DNA from: Candidatus Eiseniibacteriota bacterium
GTDB taxonomy: Bacteria; Eisenbacteria; RBG-16-71-46; CAIMUX01; WJJG01
NCBI GenBank assembly: GCA_030601305.1
Contig: JAUVTV010000002.1
Location: 1-44,656 of the forward strand
Length of the DNA stretch: 44,656 nt
Direction of reading: 5' to 3'
The position numbers and the translations under genes were made by a program. Of the stretch, positions 17,682 through 29,314 are shown in pieces. The notes under the pieces were generated by a model. It was given only the letters and a program-made list of their open reading frames with translations. It did not search any database and was not told the origin of the DNA. The number at the start of each line of letters is the position of its first letter. Position 1 is the first letter of the stretch.

Positions 17682-17707
17682 AGCCCGGATGACTTCTGCC
17701 ACGGGCT
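17682..17707. repeat. repeat hairpin element, copy 1
   Basis: AGCCCG-GATGACTTCTGCCA-CGGGCT; 24 nt (GCCCGGATGACTTCTGCCACGGGC) identical to 43849-43872; located at the lipoprotein / lpxK convergent junction. Confidence 0.85.
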
Positions 17708-18800
17708 AGTCCAGGAGACCGATCCAGTCCGGTTCGCCCGAGACGAAGGCCAGCTCTGCCGGCACGACGACGATCGCCGGCAAGCTGACCGCATGCGCTT
17801 CCATCTTGACGGCGTCCTTCTCCGTGACGAGAAACCCGCTGAGCTTCCTTCGTCGCGCCACGCTCGTGAGGCGCGCCACGTCCTTCGAACCGAACGGTGC
17901 GTGGTCGCGGGCCGCGCGCACCCACGCGGGCTGAACGCCGCGGGCGGTGAGCCCGGCGACGAACGATTCCGGTGCCGCGAGCGCCGTCCAAACGCCCCAG
18001 CGCCCGTCCCGCAGCGCTTCCCATCCGGTCGGCGCACCCGTCAGGGACCGCGGAGTCTGCAGACGGTTCTCGCACCACGCGAGCGGCACCGCGCCCGCGT
18101 GGCGGCGCACGGCGGCTTCCCAGGCGGTGCGTTCCGCACACAGCTCGGCGCGATGCAGCACGACCCAATCGGCCCGGCGCAGACTGCTCCACCCCTCTCG
18201 CCGGTCTCCCCACGGGATGAGGTGTGAACGCCCCGGAGGAAGCGACGCATCCAGCGCGACGATGTCGAGATCGCGCTTCAGCCGGCGATGCTGGAACCCG
18301 CCGTCGACGATCAACACGTCCGTCTCGATGCCCAGTTCGCGGGCCGCCTGCCACGCCTCTTCGCGACGGCGCGCGACGGCCACCGGAACCTCGGGCGAAA
18401 GACGCGCCAGCAGGATCGCCTCCTCACCCACCGTCTCCCAGCCTTCGAGCGGTTTCTCCGACGGCGCGCCGCGGCTCACGAGGCACGGCGCCGCTCGCGG
18501 CCGCGGAGCACCGTAGCCGCGCGCCACCAGGAGAGGACGGCGCCCGCCCGCGTGCAGCCTCGTCGCGATGAGCGCCGCGAGCGGCGTCTTCCCGCTGCCG
18601 CCGGCACTCAAAGAGCCCACGCTGATCACCTTCACCGGCGCATCTCGTGCGGCGAGCAGGCCGCTATCGTACGCGCGATTGCGCAGCCAGGCCGCCCCCC
18701 CGTAGAGCAGCGCCGCAGGGCCGAGGAAGACCGCCAGCAGGAGATCCGCCCCGCGGGCTTCCCCTCGCGCCAAGCGTCTGTGCGCTTCAAGCCAGCCCAT
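17706..18800 (-). CDS. lpxK: tetraacyldisaccharide 4'-kinase
   Basis: ISVGSLSAGGSGKTPLAALIATRL, ILLARLSPEVPVAVARRREEA, LIVDGGFQHRRLKRDLDIVALDAS. Confidence 0.96.
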   Translation of the reverse strand: MGWLEAHRRLARGEARGADLLLAVFLGPAALLYGGAAWLRNRAYDSGLLAARDAPVKVISVGSLSAGGSGKTPLAALIATRLHAGGRRPLLVARGYGAPRPRAAPCLVSRGAPSEKPLEGWETVGEEAILLARLSPEVPVAVARRREEAWQAARELGIETDVLIVDGGFQHRRLKRDLDIVALDASLPPGRSHLIPWGDRREGWSSLRRADWVVLHRAELCAERTAWEAAVRRHAGAVPLAWCENRLQTPRSLTGAPTGWEALRDGRWGVWTALAAPESFVAGLTARGVQPAWVRAARDHAPFGSKDVARLTSVARRRKLSGFLVTEKDAVKMEAHAVSLPAIVVVPAELAFVSGEPDWIGLLD

Positions 18801-20211
18801 CGGATCGTCCCTCGGCAGAAGGCCTGGCCGCCTCTCCGACTGGGAAACCCCAGGCCTCGAGCGCGTCCAGGGTGCGCCCCACCGCCCCGCCCACACGTTC
18901 GGCCCCGCGCAGGGCGGCACCCGCCGCAGTCCGGCACTCCTCGGGCGAAGTTGCCAGGCCGGCGAGTGTCTGTCCCAGCTCCAGCCCGGTGGCCGCCCGG
19001 AAACCGCCGCCCTCGTCCTCCAGCACGGCGGCGACGTCCGCGACGTTGCTCACGTACGATCCGTAGAACACCGGGATGCCCAGCTCGGCGGGTTCGAACA
19101 GGCTGTGTCCACCCACGGGACACAGCGTGCCCCCGACAAAGGCGAGGTCGGCCGCCGCGTAGAAACCGCGCAGCTCACCGACCGTCGTCACGAGCAGGAC
19201 GGCGCGAAGGGTGTCCGGATCCTGTCGACTGCAAGCCGCCGCAACACTCCGCACGGAGGGCAGGAGCGGTCCGCCGAGCTCCCGTCGTTCGAGGATCGGT
19301 AACCCGTGCACCTCGAGCCGGCGGCGCAGCACGCCGGCCCCGTCGGGATGACGCAGCGCGACGACCAGAAGCAGGGGACCCGGAATCTTGCGCAGCGCGT
19401 CCAGGGCATGCGCCAACGCCTCGGCCTCCTCGCGTCTCACGCTCCCGAAGACGATCACCCGATGCCAGTCGCCGCGCACACGCACGCGCTCTTCCGCAGG
19501 CACTCGCCCGCGCGGGCTTTCGTACTTCGTGTTGCCGGTCACGGCGATCTGCTCCGGCGATATCCCCAGCGCGAGCCAGCGTTCCGCATCACCGCCGGTT
19601 TGCGCGGCCACGTACACTCCGCCCAGGAGCTGCCGCAGCCAGGAACCCAGGCGGCGCAGTCGACCGGCCCCACGCTCCGTGAGCCGGGCACTGACGAAGG
19701 CGAGCGGTATGCGCGCGCGGTGAATCTCCGCGATCATGCCGGGCCACACTTCCGTCTCGCACACCAGCACGGCCGGCGGCCGCAGGGTGCCAAGCGTCCG
19801 CCGGACTAGCGCGGGGGCATCCAGTGGGGCGAAGCGCACGGCGCGCGCGCCCGCCGCTTCGGCTTCCGGCGCCAGCTCACGGGCCGTGGGCGTGACCACG
19901 CTGAGCGCCGCCCGTCGACCCCGGCGGTTCAGCTCCCGCAGAAGCGGAAGGGCGCCGCGCATCTCGCCCAGGCTGGCGGCGTGGACCCACAGCGCGCCCT
20001 CGGCGGCGGCCGGGAGCGGGCGCCAGTTCCCGAAGCGCTCGCGCATCTCGCGGCGGTGCCGCATGGCGCGCAGCGCAACATAGGGCGATCCGCCGCACAG
20101 GGCCGCGGCCCAGGCAACCCCGTAGAGACCATCGCCGACACGCGCGAGCCAGGGACGCCGGCCGCTTCGGTCCCTCCGCCGAGGATCTCCTCGTTCAGTC
20201 CCCCGCGGCAT
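18787..20211 (-). CDS. waaA: 3-deoxy-D-manno-octulosonic acid (Kdo) transferase
   Basis: LWVHAASLGEMRGALPLLRELNRRG, CETEVWPGMIAEIHRARIPLAFVSARLTERG, FVGGTLCPVGGHSLFEPAELGIPVFYG. Confidence 0.95.
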   Translation of the reverse strand: MPRGTERGDPRRRDRSGRRPWLARVGDGLYGVAWAAALCGGSPYVALRAMRHRREMRERFGNWRPLPAAAEGALWVHAASLGEMRGALPLLRELNRRGRRAALSVVTPTARELAPEAEAAGARAVRFAPLDAPALVRRTLGTLRPPAVLVCETEVWPGMIAEIHRARIPLAFVSARLTERGAGRLRRLGSWLRQLLGGVYVAAQTGGDAERWLALGISPEQIAVTGNTKYESPRGRVPAEERVRVRGDWHRVIVFGSVRREEAEALAHALDALRKIPGPLLLVVALRHPDGAGVLRRRLEVHGLPILERRELGGPLLPSVRSVAAACSRQDPDTLRAVLLVTTVGELRGFYAAADLAFVGGTLCPVGGHSLFEPAELGIPVFYGSYVSNVADVAAVLEDEGGGFRAATGLELGQTLAGLATSPEECRTAAGAALRGAERVGGAVGRTLDALEAWGFPVGEAARPSAEGRSDGLA

Positions 20212-20941
20212 GACCGGTCTCCCGCCACCGTTCGAGCACGCGTTTCGTGTGTTGGTGAACCGATTCGATCGCCGCCTCCACGCGGGGGGCCCACTCGGCC
20301 ACCGCGGCCTCGGGCGGCAGATCGTCCGGGACGAAGAACGGTTCCCCGTACCCGATCACCACTTTCGCGAAGAGATGCGGGATGATGAAGCGATCCCACG
20401 ATGCGAGGCGCCTCGCCGGATGGACGCTGACGGCGACCGGCAGGATGGGGAGACCGCCCCGCTGCGCCACCAGCACGGTGCCCGGCTGCACCTTCATACG
20501 CGGGCCGCGCGGGCCGTCGGGCGTGATGGCCAGCGGAACGCCCCGGCGACCCAGTTGCGCCATTTCGATGATCGCCCGGAACCCTCCGCGGCTGGTCGAG
20601 CCACGCGCGGTTCCGTAGCCCAGGCGCTCGATCACCTGCGTGATCATCTCGCCGTCGCGGTGCCGGCTCACCAAGACGATCGCCCCTTCGTTCCGCTTGA
20701 AGTAGCTCAAAGGGAGCAGCTGACCGTGCCAGAAAACGTGGACGAACCCCTTCCCACTCGCCACGCAATGCGCAAAGTGCCCTTCGCCGACGTAGCGCAC
20801 ACGCCACGTCGCACCCACCAAGCGCAAGAGGAGCGCCCCGAAGAAGCCGACCAGCTTCACGCGCAACGGGGCATCCTCCCGCGCGCCTCTCATCGGCGGC
20901 CGCCGGCCCTTTCCCACGGATTGCGCGCGCTTGCGGGTCAC
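20195..20941 (-). CDS. DUF374 family lysophospholipid acyltransferase-like protein
   Basis: VHVFWHGQLLPLSYF, SRHRDGEMITQVIERLGYGTARGSTSRGG, ITPDGPRGPRMKVQPGTVLVAQRGGLPILPVAV. GTG start at 20941 overlaps the lpxB stop (GTGA). Confidence 0.9.
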   Translation of the reverse strand: MTRKRAQSVGKGRRPPMRGAREDAPLRVKLVGFFGALLLRLVGATWRVRYVGEGHFAHCVASGKGFVHVFWHGQLLPLSYFKRNEGAIVLVSRHRDGEMITQVIERLGYGTARGSTSRGGFRAIIEMAQLGRRGVPLAITPDGPRGPRMKVQPGTVLVAQRGGLPILPVAVSVHPARRLASWDRFIIPHLFAKVVIGYGEPFFVPDDLPPEAAVAEWAPRVEAAIESVHQHTKRVLERWRETGHAAGD

Positions 20942-22092
20942 TGCGTGCCCTCTCCCTCGCTGGGGGTGGCTCCCGCCCAGAGATGCGCCAGGACGCGTTT
21001 CGCGGCCCGCTGGTACGCGCCCCGAGGACCGAACCGCTCGCGAAGCGTGACGAGTTCGGCGCGCATGCGCGCGCGCCCCGGTGCATCCTCCAAGATCCGC
21101 TCGATCTCGCCCGCCAGCCGCTGAGGGTTGCAGTCGTCCTGGAGGAGTTCCGGCAGAATCCGCCGTCCCGCGGACAGGTTGGCCATCGAGACCCACGGCA
21201 CGCTCACCATCCGGCGCGCGACCCACCAGGTCAAACGGCTCACGCGATAGACCACCGTCGTGGGAACGCCCATCAGCGCGACCTCGAACGAGGCGGTCCC
21301 AGAGGCTGCCACGGCAATGCCGGCCGTGTCGGCCAGATCCAGGACCGGCTCACGGCTGAGCGCGATGCCGGCTTGCTCCGCCCATGGCCGATAGGCATCC
21401 GCGTCCAGCCGGTCGGCCATCCGCAGCGTCCAGGTGAGCTGCGGCTGCGTCGCGGACAAGCGCTGAACGGCCTGCGCCATCGTCGGGAGATGATGGCGCA
21501 CTTCGCTCGCGCGGCTGCCCGGCAGGAGCAGGCCGCGCCGCACACCGGCGGCGACCGGCGCTTCCGCCGCCTCCGCGCGTGCCCGCGCGGCATCCACCAG
21601 GGGGTGTCCCACGTAGGTCGTCGTCACGCCGCGCTCGCGAAACCATTCCGTCTCGAAGGGGAAGAGCACCAGGAGCTCGCGGACGAAGCGACGCAGCGTC
21701 CGCACGCGACCCGCACGCCACGCCCAGAGCTGCGGGGCGATGAAATAGACCACCGGTACCCCGGCCGCCGCCGCCGTCTTGCACAAACGCAGATTGATCT
21801 CCGGCGAGTCGATGGGCAGGAAGAGATCGGGCGGCTTGCGCCGCAGTTCGCCGCGCAGGCGGGCGAGAAGTCGGAGCGCTCGCGGTACGACCCTCACGGC
21901 CTCCCAGAGACCCACGACCGCCAGGTCATCGTAGGTCGCGAGCATCTCCATGCCGGCATCTTGGAGCTGCGGCCCGCCGACCCCGTAGAATGTACCCGCC
22001 AGCCCCTCGTCGCGCAGCGCGCGCACGAGACCGGCTCCGTGCGCATCACTACTGGCTTCGCCGGCGACGATCAAGATGCGCAGTCGTGGCAT
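20938..22092 (-). CDS. lpxB: lipid-A-disaccharide synthase
   Basis: LRILIVAGEASSDAHGAGLVRAL, FYGVGGPQLQDAGMEML, FIAPQLWAWRAGRVRTLRRFV, VGHPLVDAA. Confidence 0.97.
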   Translation of the reverse strand: MPRLRILIVAGEASSDAHGAGLVRALRDEGLAGTFYGVGGPQLQDAGMEMLATYDDLAVVGLWEAVRVVPRALRLLARLRGELRRKPPDLFLPIDSPEINLRLCKTAAAAGVPVVYFIAPQLWAWRAGRVRTLRRFVRELLVLFPFETEWFRERGVTTTYVGHPLVDAARARAEAAEAPVAAGVRRGLLLPGSRASEVRHHLPTMAQAVQRLSATQPQLTWTLRMADRLDADAYRPWAEQAGIALSREPVLDLADTAGIAVAASGTASFEVALMGVPTTVVYRVSRLTWWVARRMVSVPWVSMANLSAGRRILPELLQDDCNPQRLAGEIERILEDAPGRARMRAELVTLRERFGPRGAYQRAAKRVLAHLWAGATPSEGEGTQ

Positions 22093-22101
22093 GGCGGCGG
22101 C

Positions 22102-23127
22102 CTAAGGTCCAGAGGTGCGATGCGCGCCGACGGCGGACGGCGGCAGGGATCCGGACGCCAGGCGCTGGAGACTCTCGCGCACCTGGGATTGGATGCGGGT
22201 CGCGATGCGCAGCACGCGAAGCGCCTCCTCCCCGGTGACCGCCGTCGGTCCTCCGTCGCGTGCCGCGGCAAGAAACGCCTGCAGCTCGTCACTGATCGCA
22301 TCGCCTTCGGGAGCGGTCAGCTCCTCCTCGCCCACGCGGAAGCGTCCCACGCCCGGCACTTCGACGTCTCCGTCCGCGTCCGCGCCGATCACCGTGCGAT
22401 GGCCCGTGCGGCGCAGGAAATCGAGCGAGAGATAGCCGGCCGGGCCGAAAAGGCGCATCTTGCGGACGCGCTCACGCGAGACGCGACTCGCGGTGAGATT
22501 CGCCACGGTTCCGTTCTCGAACCGCAGGCGGGCATTCGCGATGTCCTCGCGCGGGGTCAGTACGGCCACACCCACGGCGTCCAAGGACGTGAGCTCATGG
22601 GGAACCAGGCTGAGCAGGATGTCGAGGTCGTGGATCATGAGATCCAGCACGATATCGACATCCAGGCTGCGCGGCACGAACGGCGCCAGCCGTTCGGCCT
22701 CCACGAAGGCCGGGATGCCGATCCTCTCACGCACCGCGCGAAAGATCGGATTGAAGCGCTCGACGTGCCCCACCTGCAGCCGGAGGTCCCGCTCGGCGGC
22801 CAGTGCGAGGAGTGCCTCTCCTTGGGCCACCGTCTGGGTCATCGGCTTCTCGATGAAGATGTGGCATCCGCGTTGCAGGGCTTCCCGCGCCACATCGTGG
22901 TGCGTCTCGGTGGGGGTTGCCAGGACCACCGCGAACGCCGCATCCAACACGGCCCGCAGATCGGTCGTCGCCTGCGCCCCAACCTCCGCCGCCAGTTTCT
23001 CCGCCCGCTCGGACTGCACGTCGACCACCCATCGCGGCTGCGCGGCATCCAGGCGGTGGAGCGCGCGGGCGTGAATCGATCCCAGATGACCGGCCCCCAC
23101 CACCGCGACTGCCTGAGGCGCCGACAT
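22102..23127 (-). CDS. Gfo/Idh/MocA family oxidoreductase (GnnA-like position)
   Basis: VAVVGAGHLGSIHARALHRL, HIFIEKPMT, VGHVERFNPIFRAV, DVDIVLDLMIHDLDILLSLV; between lpxA and lpxB. Confidence 0.93.
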   Translation of the reverse strand: MSAPQAVAVVGAGHLGSIHARALHRLDAAQPRWVVDVQSERAEKLAAEVGAQATTDLRAVLDAAFAVVLATPTETHHDVAREALQRGCHIFIEKPMTQTVAQGEALLALAAERDLRLQVGHVERFNPIFRAVRERIGIPAFVEAERLAPFVPRSLDVDIVLDLMIHDLDILLSLVPHELTSLDAVGVAVLTPREDIANARLRFENGTVANLTASRVSRERVRKMRLFGPAGYLSLDFLRRTGHRTVIGADADGDVEVPGVGRFRVGEEELTAPEGDAISDELQAFLAAARDGGPTAVTGEEALRVLRIATRIQSQVRESLQRLASGSLPPSAVGAHRTSGP

Positions 23128-23143: not shown

Positions 23144-23917
23144 TCAGCGCGTCAGGCCGCGTTCGGACTGCTCGACGAACTTGCAGAAGTGATCGATCTC
23201 GGGAAGGGGCTGGCACTCCTCGCGAATTCGCGCGATGGCCTCCTCCTTCACCAGCTTGGACCGGAAGAAGATGCGATACAGGGTGCGCAATTCGCGCAGC
23301 GCCTCGGCCGAGAAACCGCGGCGCTCGAGTCCCACCTGATTGAGCCCGAATGCGCTCAGGGGATGTCCCGCGGCGCGCACATAGGGCGGTACGTCCTTGG
23401 GTACGCGGCACCCGCCGCCGATGATGCAGTGGGCGCCGAGATGCACGAACTGGTGCACCGGGGTCACCCCGCCGACGATGGCGTAGTCCTCCATCGTCAC
23501 GTGGCCCGCGAGATTGGCCGAGTTGGCCAGGATCACGTGGTTGCCCAGCACGCAGTTGTGGGCCACGTGGGCGTAGGACATGATCAGGTTGTCGTCGCCA
23601 ATGGCCGTCACCTCGCCCTCGTCGGTCGCGCGATTGACGGTGCAGAACTCGCGAAACGTGTTGCGCGCTCCGATGCGCACCTGGCTCCGCGCGCCGCGGT
23701 ACTTGAGATCCTGCGGCTCGGCACCGATGGCCGCGCCGTGGAAAAAGCGGCAGTCCGCGCCCACGATCGTCCAGCCGTCGAGGCGGACCATCGACTGCAA
23801 GTGCGCCCGATCCCCGAGGCGAACCTCCGGTCCCACCAGGCAGTAGGGTCCGATGTCGACGTCCGTGCCGAGTTCGGCACCCTTCTCCACGATGGCGGTC
23901 GGGTGGATTGCGCTCAT
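23144..23917 (-). CDS. lpxA: acyl-ACP--UDP-N-acetylglucosamine O-acyltransferase
   Basis: IHPTAIVEKGAELGTDVDIGPYCLVG hexapeptide repeats; RNTFREFCTVNRAT; YAHVAHNCVLGNHVILAN. Confidence 0.97.
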   Translation of the reverse strand: MSAIHPTAIVEKGAELGTDVDIGPYCLVGPEVRLGDRAHLQSMVRLDGWTIVGADCRFFHGAAIGAEPQDLKYRGARSQVRIGARNTFREFCTVNRATDEGEVTAIGDDNLIMSYAHVAHNCVLGNHVILANSANLAGHVTMEDYAIVGGVTPVHQFVHLGAHCIIGGGCRVPKDVPPYVRAAGHPLSAFGLNQVGLERRGFSAEALRELRTLYRIFFRSKLVKEEAIARIREECQPLPEIDHFCKFVEQSERGLTR

Positions 23918-25236
23918 GTCGCCGGATTCTCCCTGTCCACGATGCTCGAGAGCAGCTCGGCCTGCGCCACCAGGCGGCCCCGCACGAAGGCCTTGCCGGC
24001 CATCTTGCAGGTTCGGCTCTTGAGGCGCGTGAGGTGCAAGTCGAGGACGAGTTGATCGCCAGGGACCACCGGCTTGCGGAACTTCGCGTTGTCGATCCCC
24101 ATGAAGTAGACCAGCTTCGACTCGGGATTCTCGACCGTATTCAGCAAGAGCACGCCGCCCACCTGCGCCATGGCCTCGATGATCAACACCGCGGGCATGA
24201 TCGGGAAGCCCGGGAAGTGCCCGGTGAAGAACGGTTCGTTGACCGTGACGTTCTTGATGCCCACCACCCGCTCGCGTTCCTTCAGGTAGAGGATGCGGTC
24301 CACCAGGAGAAACGGGTAGCGGTGCGGCATGATGCGCTGGACATCACGGATGTCGAAGTGGATTTGATCGAGCAGCTGCTCGTACTCGGCCGCGCCGCTG
24401 TGCTCGCGCACCAGCGCGTGCACGAAGCGCACGTTGTGCTGGTGGCCGCTGCGCACGGCGCGGATGTGACCCTGTACCGGCCGGCCGAGAATGGACAGGT
24501 CGCCCAGGAGATCCAGTAGCTTGTGCCGCACGAATTCGTCACGATAGCGCAGCGGCTCCTCGTTCAAGATGCCGTCGTCTTTCACCACGACCGCGTTCTG
24601 CAAGCTGCCGCCCTTGATCATGCCCAGCTCGCGCAGCCGTTCCACATCGCGATAGAGCACGAAGGTGCGCGCGCGGGCGATTTCCTCCTTGAAGCTCTCG
24701 GGGGTCACCTCCAGGCTGCAGTACTGCGTGCCGAGGACCGGATTGTCGAATTGCAGCGTGAAGCTGATGCGCAGCCCGTCGTGCGGCGTCGCCAGGATCT
24801 CGACCCCGTCTTGTTCGTAGGCCACCGGCACGCGGATGACGAATGGCCGGCGCTCGGCGTCCTGTTCGCGGATTCCGGCTTGCTCGAGCCGTTCGACGAA
24901 CGGCGCCGCGCTGCCGTCCTTCGGCTCGGGCACTTCGAGTCCTTGGACTTCGATGATGATGTTGTCCAGGCCGAGGCCGGTCACCGCGGCGAGAACGTGC
25001 TCGACCGTGTGCACCTCGGCCTCCCCGGTGCGCAGGATCGTGCGCCGTCGCCCTTCGCGGTCCTCCACCGAGTTCTCCGGACAGACGCGGATTCGCGGCG
25101 CCGAGGGCAGATCCGCGCGTACGAACCAGATTCCCTGGTCGGCTTCCCCGGGACGGAAGGTGACGGTGTTCTCTTCGCCCGTGTGCAGCCCGACACCGGT
25201 GAGTGTCGCGGCCCGGCCGATCGTTCGCTGCCTCAC
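23914..25236 (-). CDS. lpxC: bifunctional UDP-3-O-acyl-GlcNAc deacetylase / (3R)-hydroxyacyl-ACP dehydratase (LpxC-FabZ fusion)
   Basis: Lpx[50 protein letters not shown]. Fab[44 protein letters not shown] start overlaps the lpxD stop. Confidence 0.97.
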
Positions 25237-26273
25237 CGTCGGTCGCCCTCCTTCTCCTCCATGTCCGCCACCCTCTTCTTGAGTCGCCGGACTTCCTTGA
25301 GCAGCTCCGGCAGCTGGCGCAGCGCCGCATACATGCGCTTGGCCAAGCCGTGCGAGGTCGCCGGATACCCGGAGACCTGCCCCCCCGCCGGCACCGACTT
25401 GGTCACGCCGCCCTGCGCGCCGACCATGACGTCGTCGCCGAGCTCGATGTGTCCGATGATGCCCACCTGACCGCCCAACGTCACGCGATCGCCGAGGTGG
25501 GTGCTCCCCGCGATGCCCACCTGCGCGCAGAGAATCGAGTTGCGGCCCACACGCACGTTGTGCGCCACCTGGACGAGATTGTCGATGCGCGTTCCCTGTC
25601 GGATGACCGTCGCACCCGTGGTGGCCCGGTCGATGCACGTGTTGGCGCCGATGTCGACGTCGTCCTCGATCACCACGCGTCCCAGCTGGGGCATCTTCTC
25701 ATGCGCGTGCCCCTTGGTCAGGAAACCGAAGCCGTCGTCCCCGATGACCGCCCCCGCGTGGAGGATGACCCGGTCGCCGATCTCGACTTCCTCACGGATG
25801 ACGACATTCGGATAGACGAGACACCGGCTTCCGACGATCACGTCCGCGCCGATGACGACCCCCGGGAACAGGACGGTGTGGTCCCCGATCTGGGTGCGAT
25901 CGCCGATGATGACATGCGGCCCGATCGCGACGTCGATCCCTATCTGGGCCGCGCTCCCCAGCACTGCCGAGGGATGGATCCCAGGTGGAATCGGATTGCG
26001 CTCGCGATGAAACAGCTCCATCGCCGAACGGAAAGCTTCGTACGGCTCCGCCACGCGGATGCACGCGCGCCCGTTGAAGGGATGCTCGCGCGGGAGGATC
26101 ACCGCCGAGGCATGGGTCTTGGCGAGCCACTCCCCGTAGCGCGGGTTGCCGAGGAAGGTGATCTCCCCCGCCTGGGCCTCCTTGATGCCAGCGACTCCCC
26201 GAATCTGCAGGTCGGGATCTCCGATGAGTTCTCCGCCCAAGCGCTCGGCGAGTTCCGCCAGTCGGAATTCCAT
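25233..26273 (-). CDS. lpxD: UDP-3-O-(3-hydroxyacyl)glucosamine N-acyltransferase
   Basis: [44 protein letters not shown]; hexapeptide repeats; [28 protein letters not shown]. Confidence 0.97.
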
Positions 26274-26304
26274 GGTTACCCCCCGGCGACCGTCGGCACG
26301 CCGC

Positions 26305-26832
26305 CTAGTCGCCGACTTCCTCACTGTTGAGCAGGTCCACGATATCTTGGGTCAGGTCGTGTTCCGGATCCGCATACAGGATGTTGTTGTCGGCCGCATC
26401 CAGGATGAAGTCGTAGCCTTCTTCGGCGGCGATTTGTGCGAGGAGCGCCTGCACCTTGTTGATGATCGGGCGCAGCAGTTCCTCGTTGCGCTGTTCCACC
26501 AGGCCCTCCGGACCCCAGATGCTCTGCACGTACTGTTCGTATTCGTTCAGCCTGCGCTGGTATTCCATATCCTTTTCTTGGCGGCGCTCGTTGCTGAGCA
26601 TCAAGCTCTGACTCTCCAACTCGCGCTGCAGCTCCTCGATCTCCCTCTTCCGGCGTTGGGCTTCGTCGTTCCAGCCCTGCACATCGCGGTTGAACGTCTC
26701 GACCACGCTCTGAACCGCCCGGTACTGCTGGAGAATGATCTCACTGTTGACGAACCGGATGTTCAGCTCGGCGGCCGCATCCAGCGTCAACACGGCACCC
26801 AGACAAAAAAGTGTCAGGAAGAACTTCCGCAT
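26305..26832 (-). CDS. OmpH/Skp family periplasmic chaperone
   Basis: Signal peptide [22 protein letters not shown]; coiled-coil region; [36 protein letters not shown]. Confidence 0.93.
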
Positions 26833-26923
26833 CAGAATCCTCCATCCCCACGGTGTTCTAGTCCGCAAGAGATCCTAGTCAATGCCCACGGAACGTTTCC
26901 ACCCCATTCTCCGGGGCTGGGTC

Positions 26924-29314
26924 CTAGAACGCCGGACCGAACGCGAAGTGGGTCCGCCAGCGCCTGGTCTCCGTGCCGTAGGCGTAGTAGAGACCGATGG
27001 GCCCGAGCATGGGCACCTCCATCGTGACCCCGGCCCCCACGCCCAACTTCAATCCATTCAAGGAGATGTCGTACCCGTTGGTCCACGTATCCGCCGCGTC
27101 GATGAAGAGCGTGCCCCACACCGGATCGACCACGGGGAACTGGAATTCGGAGGTGAATCCAAACATCACGTTGCCCCCGGGAAAGCGGTATATGCGCCCG
27201 TAGATATCGCGCGTGATGTTTTCCTCGGGGACGACAAAGTAGTCGTCGTAGCCGCGCAGCGCGTCGAACCCGGTCACACCGCCGAGACGGAAGAGCTCAC
27301 CCGAGGGCATCCGTCCGCTGCGCGAATAGGTGTCCATGGCTCCCAAGCGGTAGCGCAGCATGAGTACCGGTCGCCAGAACGGCTGAAAGTACTGACGATG
27401 GTCGATGGTGAAGCGATAATAGTCCATGTCGCCGCCCAAGAAGCCGCCGTTCAGCTCCACGCGCATCGTCGTCCGCGTGCCCAAGCTGGGGTGAAACGGG
27501 TTGTCCGTCGAGTTGCGGTGCAGCGAGACGTAGACACGCGACCGACTTCCCGCGCCGTCCAGGAGCTGGCCCTGTGACTCGAGCGGCAGCGAGGCATAGT
27601 CCCGATAGCGGGTCTCGCTGATCGAGTAGCCCGTGCTCATGCGCGTGTAGTCGGGGAAGCTCAGGATCCACGGGAACCCGAGACGCACGCCGATCCCCCG
27701 CGTGCTGTGCCAGTAGTGCGGGTCCGTGGTCGTGATCGTCCCCACCTCCGTGCCGCCGAACGGATCGGTCGAGTTGAACACCGTAGACGAGCTCACCTCC
27801 CGGTAGTTCTCCGTGTTGTACAGATCGATCCCCGCCGCGATCGGTCGGCCGAAGGCCCACGGCTCGGTGAACGACAAATCGTAGAACTCCCGCCGGCGAC
27901 CCCGCTCGATCTCGATCGCCACCGCCTGTCCATTGCCGAACAGGTTGTTGTGCCCGAACTTGACGAAGCCGGTGAGACCCATCTGGCTGGAGTACCCCAC
28001 GCCGCCATTGGCCTGGGCCGCGCTCTTCTCCTTCACCCGGAAGGTAACGTCCACCTCCCCGGGTCGCTCCGAAGGGTTGAACTCCACGGCGGCGTCCTCG
28101 AAGAAACCGGTCGCGAAGATGTCGCGCTGCGAGCGCAGCAGCCGACTGCGGCGCAGGACATCCCCCGGAAAGAGCTTCAGCTCCCGGCGAATCACGTGTT
28201 CCTTGGTGCGCGTGTTGCCCGTGATATAGATGTCACCCACGCGCGAGGGATTCCCCTCGGTGACGTGAAAGGTCACCTCGACGCTGTCGCCCTTCACCAC
28301 GCTCACCGGCTCGATGCGCAGTTCGACGAGATAGCCGCGCTCCGTGTACATGTTGTAGAGCTCGGCGAGCGAATCGTCCACCTTGCTCTGGTCGTAAGGC
28401 ACCCCCGGCTGGAACTGGAGCACCGCCCGGATGGCCTGCTCGTCGAAGACGCTCACCGCCTGCCAGTCGGGCCGCCCGAAGTAGTAGCGCGGCCCCTCCT
28501 CGACGTCGAAGAAGACGTCGACGTACTCGCCGTCGGGCGAGAAGACCGGCTCCCCGAGAGAGGCGCGCGCATCGCGAAATCCGTGATTGTGATAGTGCTC
28601 CTCGAGGCGCAGGACATCCTCTTCCAGCTTCTCGCGCTGGAAACGGCCTTTGCGCAGGAAGCCCTGCGGCTTGACCTTCACCTTGCCGCGCAGATCATCG
28701 TCGGTGAAGAACTCGTTGCCGGTGAAGTTCACGGCGCGCAGCTTGACGCGATGGCCCTCCTCGATCTCGAGCTTCGCGATCACCCCGTCGCCGGCGGGAT
28801 CGTCGCCGGCCAGCGGAGTGACCTGGGCCTGGGCATACCCATCGTCGCGATAGGCCCGCTCGAGCGCGCGGCGCGCCCGCGACAGATCGCTGCGCCCCAG
28901 CACGGAACCCACCTTGAGGCCGGCGAACTCCTTGAGATCCTCGCCGCTGAAGTGCTCGTGCCCCACGAAGGTGACGCCCGTGATGCGGGAGCGTTCCGCG
29001 AAGGTGAAGCGCAGGATTTTCTCACCCTTCGGTCCCGGAACGACCCACACCTCGACCTGGTCGAAGAGACCGAGGGCATACAGACTGCGCACCGAGCGAG
29101 TGATGCGGTAGAGGTGGGCCGGTTCCCCGATGCGCACCTGGATCGACTCCAGAATCAGCTCCGCGTCGACCGTGGTGAGTCCTACAAAGGCCACCGAATC
29201 GACGACGGCCGGTTCCTGCGCACGGGGTGCGGCTGCCGCGCCGGCGAGAAGCAGGCAGGCGAATAGGCAGGCTTGCCAGCGGCATCCTGCCGGGGCTGCA
29301 GACCAGTGGGACAT
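26924..29314 (-). CDS. bamA: outer membrane protein assembly factor BamA
   Basis: N-terminal POTRA repeats; GVGYSSQMGLTGFVKFGHNNLFGNGQ, C-terminal YYAYGTETRRWRTHFAFGPAF beta-barrel end. Confidence 0.96.
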   Translation of the reverse strand: MSHWSAAPAGCRWQACLFACLLLAGAAAAPRAQEPAVVDSVAFVGLTTVDAELILESIQVRIGEPAHLYRITRSVRSLYALGLFDQVEVWVVPGPKGEKILRFTFAERSRITGVTFVGHEHFSGEDLKEFAGLKVGSVLGRSDLSRARRALERAYRDDGYAQAQVTPLAGDDPAGDGVIAKLEIEEGHRVKLRAVNFTGNEFFTDDDLRGKVKVKPQGFLRKGRFQREKLEEDVLRLEEHYHNHGFRDARASLGEPVFSPDGEYVDVFFDVEEGPRYYFGRPDWQAVSVFDEQAIRAVLQFQPGVPYDQSKVDDSLAELYNMYTERGYLVELRIEPVSVVKGDSVEVTFHVTEGNPSRVGDIYITGNTRTKEHVIRRELKLFPGDVLRRSRLLRSQRDIFATGFFEDAAVEFNPSERPGEVDVTFRVKEKSAAQANGGVGYSSQMGLTGFVKFGHNNLFGNGQAVAIEIERGRRREFYDLSFTEPWAFGRPIAAGIDLYNTENYREVSSSTVFNSTDPFGGTEVGTITTTDPHYWHSTRGIGVRLGFPWILSFPDYTRMSTGYSISETRYRDYASLPLESQGQLLDGAGSRSRVYVSLHRNSTDNPFHPSLGTRTTMRVELNGGFLGGDMDYYRFTIDHRQYFQPFWRPVLMLRYRLGAMDTYSRSGRMPSGELFRLGGVTGFDALRGYDDYFVVPEENITRDIYGRIYRFPGGNVMFGFTSEFQFPVVDPVWGTLFIDAADTWTNGYDISLNGLKLGVGAGVTMEVPMLGPIGLYYAYGTETRRWRTHFAFGPAF

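Follow-up and report, generated by a model that had tools for sequence, protein, structure and literature searches.

The window, meaning the whole stretch of 44,656 nucleotides analysed, is an entire contig (C39) of a 2.24-Mb genome assembly in 219 contigs, 69% complete. A compact lipid A operon lies on its minus strand, with the gene order bamA-like, ompH/skp-like, lpxD, lpxC-fabZ (fused), lpxA, an oxidoreductase gene, lpxB, a gene for a DUF374 protein, waaA and lpxK (Table 1). The oxidoreductase gene has an ATG start at position 23127 and is closely flanked on both sides, by 16 bases between the lpxA stop and its own start and by 9 bases between its end and the lpxB ATG. The DUF374 gene sits between lpxB and waaA. 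The lpxC-fabZ reading frame overlaps the start of lpxA by 4 bases, and its matches in relatives (57-81% identical) are found immediately 5' of lpxA. The DUF374 family presumably includes the LpxJ late acyltransferases, which act prior to Kdo addition, and the DUF374 protein is probably a late acyltransferase of this type in lipid A synthesis. As originally predicted, no aminotransferase lies next to the oxidoreductase gene: no DegT aminotransferase was detected anywhere on the contig, and thus no gnnB adjoins gnnA.

Table 1. Genes of the lipid A operon in the window, with the evidence for each
Feature	Position	Strand	Evidence
gnnA, UDP-GlcNAc 3-dehydrogenase ortholog (almost certain), 341 aa	22102..23127	-	PDB 7bvj similarity, invariant columns, tree
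lpxA, UDP-GlcNAc acyltransferase	23144..23917	-	NCBIfam NF003657, E 2e-106
lpxB, lipid-A-disaccharide synthase	20938..22092	-	TIGR00215, E 7e-75
lpxC-fabZ, fused	23914..25638	-	ORF and translation; mechanical ORF limits, true start further inside
lpxD	25233..26324	-	TIGR01853, E 4e-112
DUF374 protein	20195..21226	-	PF04028, E 6.5e-27; mechanical ORF, true start probably near 20940
waaA (kdtA), Kdo transferase	18787..20211	-	NF004386, E 1.5e-64, under curated cut-off
lpxK	17706..18920	-	TIGR00682, E 6e-43
OmpH/Skp-like chaperone gene	26305..26868	-	Translation reading only
bamA-like gene, upstream end of cluster	26924..29314	-	Translation reading only

The original prediction had described the protein encoded between lpxA and lpxB as a GnnA-like member of the Gfo/Idh/MocA superfamily, and its placement and motifs agreed with the reading frame and with the Pfam and NCBIfam searches. 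The motif EKPM occupies residues 93-96, VGHVERFNPI residues 119-128 and VLDLMIHDLDI residues 160-170; the protein matched Pfam GFO_IDH_MocA (E 2e-28), and no NCBIfam equivalog passed its cut-off. In a search of solved structures, 7bvj was retrieved with an E value of 2.6e-63 over residues 7-324, about 46 orders of magnitude ahead of the second-best entry (1.2e-17). We take 7bvj, whose molecule is named in the entry only as 'Oxidoreductase, NAD-binding', to be the GnnA of Acidithiobacillus ferrooxidans; the window protein is 43% identical to it over the whole length. Among 14 aligned GnnA sequences, the window included, 44 columns were invariant, including E93-K94-P95, D156, D158, D162-L163-M164 and H166-D167, and the superfamily active-site residues (the lysine of EKP and the histidine of DLMIHD) are kept in the window protein. 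The residues at the catalytic motifs are the same in GnnA proteins with and without a linked gnnB. The refutation named beforehand combined clustering away from GnnA with the lack of any GnnB homolog, and the protein clustered with GnnA: in one quick tree of 98 proteins, with SH-aLRT support only, it fell within 90 GnnA rows and apart from eight WlbA-like rows (95) taken from the window's own class. On these comparisons, the gene is almost certainly an ortholog of gnnA.

The gene was detected in 34 of 39 relatives, and in 25 of the 26 with at least 90% completeness and at most 5% contamination. Thirty loci of the class were read: three are cut by contig ends, and all 27 with readable flanks have the order lpxA-gnnA-lpxB, the genes being spaced too closely to admit one for an aminotransferase. 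As the ortholog recurs at this position across relatives from many families, its placement is far beyond chance. Within the window's family, identity amounts to 59-60% for GnnA, 60-62% for LpxB and 70-74% for LpxA; the conservation of GnnA is close to that of LpxB, and GnnA is therefore under selection.

Three arrangements of gnnA were observed among the named genomes. In 15 loci (Geobacter, Desulfuromonadales, Thioalkalivibrio, Methylococcaceae and others) a GnnB gene adjoins gnnA, mostly in the order gnnA-gnnB-lpxB. A second arrangement, lpxA-gnnA-lpxB or gnnA-lpxB without gnnB, occurs in Eisenbacteria, Gemmatimonadota, Zixibacteria, Nitrospirota, Omnitrophota, KSB1, a myxobacterial MAG and Desulfacinum, while in Flavobacteria gnnA is distant from lpxA and lpxB. 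The clusters of Geobacter, Desulfuromonadales, Thioalkalivibrio and Methylococcaceae (L117, L040, L042 and L046) resemble that of the window in that lpxB is preceded by gnnA, whose product belongs to the same GnnA clade, but differ in the gene for a GnnB of 364-367 residues between the two. The order gnnA-gnnB-lpxB in Geobacter, Thioalkalivibrio and Methylococcaceae ties the GnnA clade of the window to GnnB. No paper joining lpxA/lpxB with a MocA-type oxidoreductase was found in a literature search.

In the GnnA/GnnB pathway, LpxA acylates N3 of UDP-GlcNAc3N. In A. ferrooxidans, GnnA first oxidises C3 of UDP-GlcNAc, and transamination by GnnB follows (PMC5644692; cited in PMC8036547). The window protein shares with that GnnA (7bvj, 7bvk) its end-to-end identity, the catalytic motifs and the place by lpxA and lpxB, whereas the window gnnA has no gnnB beside it. 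Such separation is known elsewhere: gnnA and gnnB are unlinked in Phyllobacterium and M. loti (PMC5644692), in the flavobacterial relative Capnocytophaga, whose lipid A contains GlcN3N (PMC3342949), and in Granulibacter, in which the candidate GnnBs are just 37-39% identical (PMC8036547). Since proven makers of GlcN3N have gnnB unlinked, the missing adjacent gnnB is ordinary. In all four organisms gnnB lies away from the lpxA-lpxB genes; unlike that of the window, their gnnA is also away from lpxA/lpxB or has not been reported beside them, and for three of them (Phyllobacterium, Capnocytophaga and Granulibacter) lipid A measurements showed GlcN3N.

Identity to the Geobacter GnnB was 40-52% for GnnB, WbpE-like and DesV-like enzymes alike and cannot separate these types, and trees were therefore used for the DegT aminotransferases. 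GnnBs identified by adjacency to gnnA formed one clade (support 100 in two trees, built without the GnnBs of A. ferrooxidans, Leptospira and Legionella), nested in a larger clade (99) that also takes in WbpE and a flavobacterial group, along with many DegTs from the class of the window. The flavobacterial DegT adjoins waaA in two of the genomes read, a position that fits a GnnB. None of the DegTs scanned reached an NCBIfam equivalog cut-off. Most other families of the class carry an aminotransferase of the GnnB/WbpE clade at an unlinked locus. In f3-f6, f10 and f11 these are mostly parts of WlbA-WlbB-WlbC-like clusters (dehydrogenase, hexapeptide acetyltransferase and aminotransferase), and in f2 the gene stands alone. 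The lone DegT of f7 changed its tree position between builds, and the f7 enzymes were for this reason not counted as firm GnnBs. This f7 enzyme (L165, L166, L156, L161) was seen in eight f7 genomes, and in the loci read its gene adjoins those of a large AsmA-like protein and a deoxyhypusine synthase-like protein.

The original prediction had left two alternatives, a gnnB elsewhere in the genome or an oxidoreductase acting alone in a different modification. The former is favoured, because most other families of the class have an unlinked GnnB/WbpE-clade gene and the published GlcN3N makers are likewise unlinked; for the window's own family it is unproven. When the PF01041 proteins of five genomes from that family (69, 86, 87, 89 and 95% complete) were inventoried in full, no GnnB-clade DegT was recovered; the DegTs present were ArnB-like (5 of 5), of a type found on contig C86 of the window's genome (5 of 5) and of a type found on its contig C94 (4 of 5). 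The genome search for GnnB that had been proposed thus gave no member of the clade in the 69%-complete genome of the window, but did give the C94 DegT, which is 47% identical to the Geobacter GnnB and lies outside the GnnB/WbpE clade. Because no GnnB-clade enzyme is found in five incomplete genomes, readings in which GnnA works with another partner, or alone, are also to be weighed.

The C94 DegT adjoins a WlbA-like dehydrogenase, the best solved match of which is 3q2k (E 4e-84), presumably Bordetella WlbA. From this neighbour and its identity to the Geobacter GnnB, the C94 enzyme may be a 3-aminotransferase of a UDP-3-keto-sugar, and it is the best stand-in as a putative partner of GnnA in the window's family. 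Against this assignment stand its position outside the GnnB clade, its own dehydrogenase partner, and the PF01041 inventory of one family genome (G002), in which no C94-type DegT was found although gnnA is present. The C94 enzyme has His at the position of WbpE 308, where 10 of 11 synteny-defined GnnBs have Tyr, and Leu at WbpE 283, where all 11 have Gln, differences that are an empirical pattern and not a tested determinant. Near the C94-type DegT of another family genome (G004), a 148-aa open frame consisting almost entirely of aspartate runs was noted (L176:6328-6771), which may be a low-complexity artefact.

A further group with GnnA was found around Desulfacinum, where 48 of 56 genomes carry it. 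In all 30 loci read (L104:9035-10960 of Desulfacinum hydrothermale, L228-L257), LpxI and GnnA are fused, with GnnA as the C-terminal half of a protein of mostly about 630-660 residues and the domain order PF17930 (LpxI_N), PF06230 (LpxI_C) and GFO_IDH_MocA; no paper holding both GnnA and LpxI was found in the literature search. Like the window gene, the fusion places GnnA in the lpxA-lpxB interval; it differs in that GnnA is fused behind LpxI, whereas the window's class has no LpxI and an LpxH-like gene instead. The idea that Desulfacinum has no GnnB was rejected: a single-protein search (E <= 1e-70) came back empty, but the PF01041 search recovered a lone WbpE/GnnB-like DegT. This enzyme (L217:1450-2613 and class relatives), which has an insert of about 25 residues and is encoded between an enoyl-CoA hydratase-like and a purN-like gene, is probably the unlinked GnnB of the Desulfacinum class. 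A GnnB/WbpE-clade DegT occurs in 34 of the 48 GnnA genomes (28 Desulfacinum-like at E <= 1e-100, and six of another subclade), and GnnA therefore travels usually, not always, with a GnnB-type enzyme. Several of the remaining 14 have a DegT paired to a dehydrogenase. No GnnB-like DegT was found in G063, G064, G070, G094, G095 and G096, genomes for which completeness is not given; the contigs of G063 and G064 are no shorter than 1.9 Mb.

Among the other lipid A enzymes, the window LpxA, aligned to that of E. coli (1lxa), keeps the catalytic His and, at the position of E. coli G173, a Gly. Selectivity of the Leptospira LpxA is set by the orientation of a backbone carbonyl, and the E. coli LpxA accepts both UDP-GlcNAc and UDP-GlcNAc3N; for these reasons the LpxA sequence is indecisive on the use of UDP-GlcNAc3N. 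LpxI was found in none of the 39 genomes of the class, and an LpxH-like gene in 36 of the 39, in every case under the LpxH family cut-off. With the LpxA residues kept and an LpxH-like gene so widely present, the lipid A chain is complete except for an assured aminotransferase.

In the pathway proposed for the window organism, GnnA with NAD would oxidise the 3-OH of UDP-GlcNAc to yield UDP-3-keto-GlcNAc, which an unlinked aminotransferase would convert to UDP-GlcNAc3N; the partner would be the C94 DegT in the window's family and an unlinked GnnB/WbpE-clade DegT elsewhere in the class. LpxA would then acylate N3 through an amide bond, and LpxC, LpxD, the LpxH-like enzyme and LpxB would lead on to lipid A carrying GlcN3N at one or both sugar positions. 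Such a supply of UDP-3-keto-GlcNAc by GnnA, completed by an unlinked aminotransferase, is quite probable, and the gene content makes GlcN3N lipid A a fairly probable product of this organism. We know of no lipid A from this phylum.

The readings that compete with this pathway differ in where they depart from it. That the oxidoreductase is a WlbA-type or other sugar dehydrogenase, present in the operon by chance, is most improbable; domain models hardly separate the members of the superfamily and no equivalog exceeded its cut-off, but GnnA orthology is clear and the operon position is class-wide. A WlbA/WbpB identity in particular was rejected on the separate branch and the lpx context. A genuine gnnB in the missing part of the window's assembly, which has many contigs and is well short of complete, would agree with the GnnB/WbpE-clade gene of most other families of the class; it is very unlikely, as the other four family genomes, up to 95% complete, also lack such a gene, and multiplying the missing fractions of all five gives a rough value of only about 3e-5. 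The C86 DegT, although present in every family genome, is itself quite an unlikely partner. Its clade lies outside GnnB/WbpE and closer to DesV-like enzymes, and its gene sits in a cluster (L174, the C86 locus itself, L159 and L152) conserved in the family. Besides the DegT, this cluster encodes an NAD-dependent epimerase/dehydratase, a methyltransferase, a small membrane protein resembling EmrE and large glycosyltransferase-like membrane proteins, and it has the look of a separate, arn-style amino-sugar transfer system.

It is rather unlikely that GnnA acts in the lipid A pathway with no GnnB at all, for example in forming a 3-epimer, in a regulatory or redox step, or by way of a 3-keto intermediate used later. 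Equally free of GnnB, and unlikely, is the making or editing of a different lipid A precursor by GnnA in the window's family and in those Desulfacinum relatives that have the fusion and no GnnB-like aminotransferase. Action without GnnB draws on the five family genomes and the six fusion genomes in which no such enzyme was found; the latter are of unstated completeness, most GnnA genomes of the Desulfacinum class do carry a GnnB/WbpE-clade DegT, and the catalytic motifs do not change with gnnB linkage. To our knowledge, there is no chemistry for GnnA acting without GnnB.

The favoured pathway, with an unlinked aminotransferase, predicts that Eisenbacteria, an uncultured phylum, make lipid A from the diamino sugar GlcN3N, and the same gene arrangement extends this prediction to Gemmatimonadota, Zixibacteria, Nitrospirota, Omnitrophota and others. 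If true, the few proven cases would greatly understate the spread of GlcN3N chemistry, and probably its age as well. The remaining interest lies in the window's family without a GnnB-clade enzyme and in the LpxI-GnnA fusion; together with the GnnB-lacking fusion genomes, this family raises the question of which aminotransferase, if any, finishes the reaction. A related logic is seen in the UDP-GlcNAc(3N)A pathway, in which WlbA/WbpB and WlbC/WbpE, members of the same superfamilies, likewise carry out oxidation at C3 followed by transamination. These enzymes differ in acting on a uronic acid and in forming a separate branch, and a homologous pair is encoded on contig C94 of the window's own genome.
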